Source of the DNA: an uncultured Opitutia bacterium
GTDB taxonomy: Bacteria > Verrucomicrobiota > Verrucomicrobiia > Opitutales > Opitutaceae
Assembly: GCA_903840415.1 (NCBI GenBank)
Contig: CAIMFY010000091.1
Span: forward strand, 1 to 64,000
Direction: 5' to 3'
Length of the DNA: 64,000 bases
The position numbers were made by a program, and so were the translations under genes. The first letter of the stretch is position 1. Each line of letters begins with the position of its first letter. The notes below the pieces were generated by a model that made no database searches, was not told the DNA's origin, and saw only the letters and a list, made by a program, of their open reading frames with translations. Positions 8,980-10,065 of the stretch are shown here, piece after piece.

Positions 8980-10065
8980 CTAAAGCTCGTCGTCGTGAGC
9001 GACGTTGAGGGAGGAGGCCTTTTGATATTCGGTGACGCGACCCTCGAAGAAGTTTTGCTCCTTCTTGATGTCCATCATCTCGGCGAGCCACGGGAGCGGG
9101 TTTTTCGCTCCAGGCGAAAGGAGAGCCAGACCGCAGCCTTCAAGGCGCCGGTCCGCGATAAAGTCAATATAGGTGAGGAACTCGTCGGCCGCGAGGCCCA
9201 CGGCGTTTACAGGCAAGCAGTCACGGATAAATTCCTTTTCGAGAGCAATCGCCTCGGCCATGAGCGCACGGAGTTCCTCCTTAAATTCAGTCGTCCAGAT
9301 TTCGCGGTTCTCCTCGACGAGATCCATGAAGAGATTGCGGAAGACTTCGATGTGATTCGATTCGTCGCGCAGCGTGTAGCGAAACATCTGGCCGATGCCG
9401 GGGAATTTGTTCTGTCGATAGAGCGACAGCACCATGCCGAAAAGGCCGTAGAACTGTGTGCCCTCCATGCACTGGCCAAAAACAAAGATGTTTTTCGCAA
9501 GGAGCTTTTTATTCTCCGGCTTGGTGAGATCCAAATCTCGGCGGAGGGAGCGGGAAGTCTTGGTAACGAACTCGTTCTTGCGGACAATGGTCGGAATATC
9601 CTCGAACATCGCCTCGCACTCGTGGGGATTGATGCCCAGCGACGCGATCATGTAGAGGAGCGAATCGGCGTGGATGTTTTCCTCGTGGGCGTGACGACCG
9701 AGGACGAGCTTGAGCTCAGGGGCGGTCACGAGCTCGCGCACGACGTGTTGGATATTGTCTCCCACAATGCCCTCCGCGGCCGAAAAATAGCCGATGCCCA
9801 TCCGAATGATCCACCGCTCGATATCAGAAACCGTCTTCTCGTCGCGCCACTGCTCTATATCCTTACCCATCGGGATGTCCTCGGGCTCCCAGTGATTGGC
9901 CTTCATCTTCCGGTAAAGATCGTAGGCCCACTGATATTTGAGCGGGAGGAGATTGAAGCACATGGTCTCGCGACCGTTGATCACTTTCTTAGCCGCAAAC
10001 GCCGCCTCAGCCTTGTCCTGATCAAGGACAAAGGTCTTGGCACCAACTTGGAATGTCTTTTGCAC
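8980..10065 (-). CDS. nrdB: Ribonucleotide reductase R2 subunit, tyrosine-less (class Ic-like NrdB)
   Basis: 361 residues from a GTG at 10065; no good ATG is close, and the start VQKTFQVGAK lines up with short R2 N-termini. Metal ligands are all present: E98 (SAAEGIVG), E129 and H132 (EENIH), E201 (MEGTQF), E235 and H238 (RDESNH). The residue four after H132, where most R2 proteins have the radical tyrosine, is Leu136 (HADSLLY). Chlamydia trachomatis R2 has Phe there and uses a Mn/Fe cofactor. Trp59 (ANHWEP), Asp234 and a tail tyrosine (TEYQKASSL) keep the radical path. It is first in the nrdB-nrdA operon, below a candidate NrdR operator. It supplies the oxidising equivalent to NrdA. Confidence 0.93.
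   Translation of the reverse strand: MQKTFQVGAKTFVLDQDKAEAAFAAKKVINGRETMCFNLLPLKYQWAYDLYRKMKANHWEPEDIPMGKDIEQWRDEKTVSDIERWIIRMGIGYFSAAEGIVGDNIQHVVRELVTAPELKLVLGRHAHEENIHADSLLYMIASLGINPHECEAMFEDIPTIVRKNEFVTKTSRSLRRDLDLTKPENKKLLAKNIFVFGQCMEGTQFYGLFGMVLSLYRQNKFPGIGQMFRYTLRDESNHIEVFRNLFMDLVEENREIWTTEFKEELRALMAEAIALEKEFIRDCLPVNAVGLAADEFLTYIDFIADRRLEGCGLALLSPGAKNPLPWLAEMMDIKKEQNFFEGRVTEYQKASSLNVAHDDEL

Follow-up and report, generated by a model that had tools for sequence, protein, structure and literature searches.

The R2 subunit of class I ribonucleotide reductase (RNR) encoded in the window (a stretch of 64,000 nt, positions 1 – 64,000 of contig CAIMFY010000091.1 of an uncultured Opitutia bacterium) is probably a class Ic-like enzyme, in which the dimetal site, instead of a tyrosine, would store the oxidising equivalent. 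The assignment is drawn from the sequence, a structure model and analogy with the R2c protein of Chlamydia trachomatis, and is favoured because the radical tyrosine is absent, the six-ligand metal site begins with a glutamate, Trp59, Asp234 and Tyr347 are present, the predicted fold matches class Ic proteins, and conservation is clade-wide. An earlier note on this DNA had suggested a class Ic-like enzyme in a free-living relative of the chlamydiae, and this stands to the extent that C. trachomatis R2c ranks first in both the sequence and the structure comparisons, Glu is the first ligand and the Leu at the radical position is redox-inert. Counting against it, the Leu-bearing enzymes (the Leu clade) formed no group with Chlamydia that leaves out Tyr-bearing enzymes. 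The same note had spoken of a Leu variant. The Leu is present, but it is not a local peculiarity (106 of the 107 frames covering the site have it), its clade lies outside the Chlamydia-type clade, and Leu in R2c proteins is already on record in sources cited below.

Identification of nrdB and its neighbourhood

The features are listed in Table 1. The coordinates previously given for the R2 gene hold; nrdB is read from the minus strand, and the open frame on the plus strand is its mirror. Its start at 10065 is supported because a start codon occurs at the same register in most of 149 aligned rows (ATG in 126, GTG in 4; some rows repeat a gene, that of the window included), and with this start the earlier numbering of His132 and Leu136 is right. 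Identity as an R2 protein is indicated by the PF00268 match, by R2 structures matching the model and by a six-ligand dimetal site of the ferritin-like fold, as well as by the relay residues and the adjoining nrdA, which lies downstream on the same strand with about 170 bases between the nrdB stop and its start. The host genome (4.9 Mb, 98% complete) has one PF00268 match, and the nearest records are Opitutaceae/Opitutae assemblies with up to 96 – 97% R2 identity.

Table 1. Coordinates of the features in the window.
Feature	Position (nt)	Strand	Remarks
nrdB (R2, class I RNR small subunit), 361 aa	8980..10065	-	GTG start at 10065, stop included; NF005550 332.6 bits (cut-off 309), PF00268 220 bits
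nrdA (R1 large subunit)	5454..8810	-	ATG at 8810 likely start (open frame from 8915); NF005544 1260 bits (cut-off 965)
Single profile-detectable ATP cone of NrdA	8079..8339	-	PF03477 73.1 bits; residues 193-279 of the 1153-aa frame
Leu136 codon, site of the class Ia/Ib radical tyrosine (Phe127 in C. trachomatis)	9658..9660	-	alignment
Glu129-x-x-His132 metal-ligand motif codons	9670..9681	-	alignment
Glu98 codon, first metal ligand (Asp in Tyr-bearing R2)	9772..9774	-	alignment
Palindrome CCACATCCTGTTGTGG, perfect	10173..10188	-	123 bases 5' of the nrdB start codon

R2lox proteins, which are Mn/Fe proteins according to an excerpt of PMC4118035, resemble the window R2 in having Glu as first ligand and no Tyr where class Ia enzymes have their radical (L222, a member of this family, aligned with Glu and Phe at the two sites). 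They differ in that the window R2 keeps Tyr347, has nrdA next to it and scores 24 – 50 bits on R2lox models with cut-offs of 194 – 346. The scores and the retained Tyr347 speak against its being an R2lox.

Metal site and radical position

The metal ligands are Glu98, Glu129, His132, Glu201, Glu235 and His238, and the radical relay consists of Trp59, Asp234 and Tyr347; the path and ligands described in the earlier note as intact could thus be assigned residue by residue in the alignment. Leu136, four residues past His132, is aligned by phmmer with C. trachomatis R2 Phe127, and the Tyr of the F127Y mutant (2ani) occupies that column as well, which confirms the earlier reading of this residue. 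No tyrosine of the window R2 falls at the radical position that marks class Ia and Ib enzymes; it has instead the two marks of class Ic, a redox-inert residue there and Glu98 in place of Asp as first ligand. The latter, absent from the earlier note, is the residue found in Mn/Fe proteins, although the part of PMC4118035 that describes this also names it in di-iron monooxygenases.

Tyr230 is the equivalent of C. trachomatis Tyr222, which mediates activation and is conserved in R2c (PMC4118035, excerpt). It is Tyr in all 153 rows of the main Leu group and also in all 54 close Tyr rows, while some 10% of the 29 Phe rows have Phe instead, and it is not diagnostic of class Ic.

If the enzyme works as C. 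trachomatis R2c does, O2 would oxidise a Mn(II)/Fe(II) pair to Mn(IV)/Fe(IV), and one electron delivered via Tyr230 and Trp59 would then yield Mn(IV)/Fe(III). This would oxidise the active-site Cys of NrdA by the usual path, and Leu136 may do nothing but fill the pocket vacated by the tyrosine.

Occurrence of Leu136 and its pairing with Glu98

Leu occupies the radical site in 106 of the 108 R2 frames of the first locus set, to which the window's R2 (L001) belongs, and this argues that Leu136 is no sequencing error. Of the two others, L108 is a fragment in which the site is missing and L082 a Tyr-bearing second R2. Leu136 is the rule across a whole clade, mainly of Verrucomicrobiota, and not a local variant. 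In one genome (G006) a Leu R2 is accompanied by a Tyr/Asp R2 (L082:1375-2448). Phe-type class Ic-like R2s are also present in the window's phylum (11 loci).

The sample of the window's phylum comprised 288 genomes, 91 of them matching, and the loci read were a selection among the matches. Two samples came from the phyla of G317 and G318 (labelled Planctomycetaceae and Rubrivivax), with 33 matches in 199 genomes and 130 in 299; there the best matches alone were read as loci (30 from the phylum with 130), so that a rare Leu enzyme could escape. Among the best matches read in these two phyla, Leu was found in G317, G318, G437 and G468, and G317 and G318 (89% match) may represent contamination with Opitutaceae contigs. 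Named plasmids, phages and viral loci (58 of 79 translated) were sampled as well, and a search of viral contigs with the window R2 protein as single query returned no relatives. Some genes are represented by more than one locus (the window itself is both L001 and L109), and distinct rows were counted only for the tally that follows.

Among 284 distinct R2 rows, 138 have Glu with Leu, 27 Glu with Phe (one of these, L222, being the R2lox), 117 Asp with Tyr and one Glu with Tyr; in the remaining row the first position is missing. The pairing of Glu with Leu or Phe, or of Asp with Tyr, is thus kept in 282 of 283 distinct rows, and Glu is the first ligand in all 138 that have Leu136. A statistical proof of the coupling between Glu and a non-Tyr residue was abandoned, as only about two (one or two) independent changes are available and no significance can be attained with so few pairs. 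The sole aligned R2 with both a Glu first ligand and a radical-site Tyr is on a viral contig (L289, 2001-2975), and is the natural equivalent of the E. coli protein engineered as D84E.

Residues around the metal site

The Leu enzymes have a set of clade-specific residues beside the ligands. In the 153 main-group Leu rows N130, Q198, T203, Q204, T231 and N237 are each present at 100%, H125, H127, G197 and L208 at 99 – 100%, and D134 is likewise invariant or nearly so. The 29 Phe rows and 54 close Tyr rows have Ala, Val/Cys, Ile/Leu, Phe, Ile and Ile/Met at positions 130, 198, 203, 204, 231 and 237, respectively, and Gln, Phe/Tyr, Tyr/Ala and Gly at 125, 127, 197 and 208. The residues of the Leu clade near the ligands are more polar, whereas their counterparts in the Phe and Tyr rows are mostly hydrophobic. 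Judging from their nearness to the ligands along the chain they would lie close to the metals, and position 231, on our reading of the alignment, probably corresponds to the Ile of the class Ia tyrosyl-radical pocket (described in an excerpt of PMC3824934). Since the residues beside the ligands are invariantly different in the Leu rows, their metal preference need not match that of the Phe and Tyr enzymes.

Structure model and related R2 proteins

An AlphaFold2 model of the window R2 was built from 56 sequences, the alignment having taken 46 viral loci and 9 of 80 genome-contig loci; its pLDDT is 88.3 and the last 26 residues are unreliable. Its top Foldseek matches are 4m1i (TM 0.92 by target length), 4m1h, 2ani and 4d8f, with C. 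trachomatis R2c first. Alignment with VIA-align gave Z scores of 43.5 – 44.5 for six C. trachomatis entries and 6y2n, and at most 38.4 for other R2 entries. The best sequence matches in the PDB are likewise C. trachomatis R2c (E 2.1e-77 to 2.9e-77), followed by 6y2n, which we take to be the R2 of Saccharopolyspora erythraea.

The closest characterised counterpart is thus the class Ic NrdB of C. trachomatis, which carries Mn(IV)/Fe(III) (1syy, 4d8f, 4m1i). Both proteins have Glu as first ligand, a redox-inert residue where the radical Tyr would stand and the same fold, and the window R2 has counterparts of the chlamydial Trp, Tyr222, Asp and C-terminal Tyr; the two differ in having Phe127 versus Leu136, in overall sequence (about 37% identity) and in the invariant residues at the ligand side, and the Phe-type loci sampled have the order nrdA->nrdB as opposed to nrdB->nrdA in the window. 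The 6y2n protein resembles the window R2 in its first ligand, the lack of a radical-site Tyr and its fold (Z 43.5), but has Phe instead of Leu and groups in trees with Tyr/Asp R2s. Plasmid-borne NrdB of haloarchaea (Haladaptatus, Natrononativus, Halorussus; L182-L184) also has a Glu first ligand and no radical Tyr, and differs from the window R2 in carrying Phe at the site and following nrdA.

Leu at the radical site is itself a known variation: excerpts of PMC3824934 document Leu, Ile and Val in place of Phe in R2c (credited to Hogbom 2010), those of the RNR phylogeny in eLife (PMC9531940) give Phe or Leu for class O, much like class Ic, and those of PMC9669993 report that NrdAz and NrdAq have many class Ic-like partners in which a redox-inert residue is found. 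Searches of the open-licence literature found no characterised enzyme, and no metal or spectroscopic report, for any member of the Leu clade.

Phylogeny and gene order

Trees were computed without columns 98 and 136 and without the R2lox L222: a quick tree of 76 rows (representatives drawn from 249 rows), one of 50 rows, and one of 49 rows from which long branches, tandem paralogues and every second Leu row had been removed, the deep relative L141 being kept. The Leu rows form one clade with support of 100/100 in the 49-row tree and 100 in the 76-row quick tree; in the 50-row tree, where a very long Tyr branch (L154) fell beside the Leu rows, the value is 87/66. The window R2 is not nested inside a Tyr clade, a placement named in the earlier note as contrary to its reading. 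In all three trees the neighbouring clade holds Chlamydia, other Phe rows, the haloarchaeal Phe rows and Tyr/Asp enzymes nested with 6y2n. The Leu clade therefore lies outside the Chlamydia-type clade and is distinct from the chlamydial Phe lineage.

A single clade of Leu and Phe rows was not rejected in the 49-row tree (p-AU 0.515) but not recovered either, the Phe rows being intermixed with Tyr rows; a Phe-only clade was rejected (p 0.018, the group having been defined after seeing the tree). Support for Phe and Tyr rows together against Leu varies, from 66/40 in the 49-row tree (weak) to 91/53 in the 50-row tree and 98 in the 76-row quick tree. Given this variation and the unrejected Leu and Phe clade, the Tyr could have been lost once and later regained, or lost on separate occasions. 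The part of the trees with 6y2n and L203-L251 places a Phe/Glu enzyme among Tyr/Asp enzymes, and there the radical Tyr would have been regained, or lost more than once.

Gene order agrees with the Leu clade being a separate lineage. Where nrdA was in range (counted in rows, some repeating a gene), the order was nrdB->nrdA in 149 of 149 Leu rows and nrdA->nrdB in 20 of 20 Phe rows, while in Tyr rows nrdA->nrdB was found 60 times versus 3 otherwise.

One related genus (G146, G237) carries an additional, divergent R2 between nrdB and nrdA, with 59% identity to that of the window (L139, 5703-7529, plus strand; L140, 5896-7143, minus strand). In both loci this tandem copy keeps the Leu, the six ligands and the C-terminal Tyr, and has Asn for Tyr230 and His for Tyr138; the L139 copy ends in DDDL and is without the NFFE motif. 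The additional R2 is perhaps a partner subunit.

The large subunit

The large subunit had been described in the earlier note as having several ATP cones like its chlamydial homologue, and this was not borne out. Pfam detects one cone (Table 1) and no further one in the flanking segments at E values up to 10, and an hhalign comparison of the N-terminal segment with the cone revealed a weak likeness (probability 11%, E 0.0027). Three N-terminal ATP cones are given for C. trachomatis NrdA in an excerpt of PMC9669993, so the resemblance of the window NrdA, with its one Pfam cone, to the chlamydial enzyme is weaker than had been held. Two cone stretches were seen in each of two Phe-type NrdAs of the phylum, and one in L139 and in L141, which are Leu loci.

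Other ribonucleotide reductases

The window's genome gave no match to NrdD. The TIGR02504 model matched its own NrdA below the cut-off and, with 21 bits, a sequence on contig C11 (L180:49-2133), which codes for a B12-dependent class II reductase of the monomeric type (TIGR02505 gives 240 bits against a cut-off of 340). The proposal that the Leu enzyme is the only RNR of this genome was therefore dropped, and is kept just for 14 relatives. An R2 occurs in 26 of 38 genomes (the window's own and 37 relatives), and in 14 of these 26 the three models used found no NrdD, no monomeric class II enzyme and no NrdJ beyond the match at the genome's own NrdA; completeness is 95% or more in 11 of these 14. 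Since no other RNR was found in them, the Leu enzyme must work there. The need for it is shown in relatives only, and not for the window's genome. In nine of the 12 genomes lacking R2 the monomeric class II model gave a match, each time below its cut-off, as in the window's genome.

Alternative readings of the site

The absence of the tyrosine could also mean that the protein is a degenerate or accessory R2 that generates no radical. Non-catalytic class Ia R2 partners of this sort exist, the yeast Rnr4 type among them, and the divergent tandem paralogues of one genus (L139, L140) and the monomeric class II RNR in the window's own genome would suit such a role. However, the ligands and Trp59, Asp234 and Tyr347 are kept throughout the clade, and the Leu R2 belongs to the only RNR found in 14 of the 26 R2-bearing genomes, which leaves this reading hardly credible. 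A tyrosyl radical displaced to another conserved Tyr near the site, such as Tyr138, Tyr206 or Tyr230, is highly improbable: all three show little or no variation within the main Leu group, but their equivalents are Tyr in C. trachomatis R2c too, which works without a tyrosyl radical, and Tyr138 is replaced by His in L141 and in the tandem paralogues.

A metal-based oxidant with a different metal pair (e.g. Mn/Mn or Fe/Fe), set by the clade's own site residues, is quite unlikely, as the ligand set is the same as in the Mn/Fe R2c and class Id, which retains Tyr at the radical position (PMC8463856, excerpt), is unlike the window R2 in this respect. It is kept in consideration because the clade-specific residues (N130, D134, G197, Q198, T203, Q204, L208, T231, N237, H125 and H127) replace mostly hydrophobic ones beside the ligands; the separate clade (100/100) and the reversed gene order in all 149 rows with nrdA seen also speak for it. 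Possible, if on the unlikely side, is the broader proposition that the Leu clade represents an independent, or else very early, tyrosine-less class I lineage with its own polar site and operon order, and maybe a metal pair or assembly route other than the chlamydial one. The Leu-clade enzyme is known in kind, yet stands far enough apart from its chlamydial counterpart to make a metal assay worthwhile. Should the class Ic-like reading be correct, a metal-only oxidant would be the rule in many free-living Verrucomicrobiota, in some as the sole reductase found, and the clade would offer natural Leu-for-Phe variants with altered surroundings for asking what sets the choice between Mn and Fe; should the metals differ from Mn/Fe, it would constitute a further cofactor type.

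Upstream palindrome

The palindrome CCACATCCTGTTGTGG upstream of nrdB may be an NrdR box, which it resembles, and an NrdR gene is present in the window's genome. A second TTGTGG is found at 10210-10205, 32 bases upstream of the palindrome. As for a paired NrdR box, a second palindrome 31 – 33 bases away was seen in 12 of 149 rows versus none of 149 single shuffles, but the window does not have one. An exact CCACA-N6-TGTGG occurs in 71 of 150 nrdB upstream regions (some rows repeating a gene).
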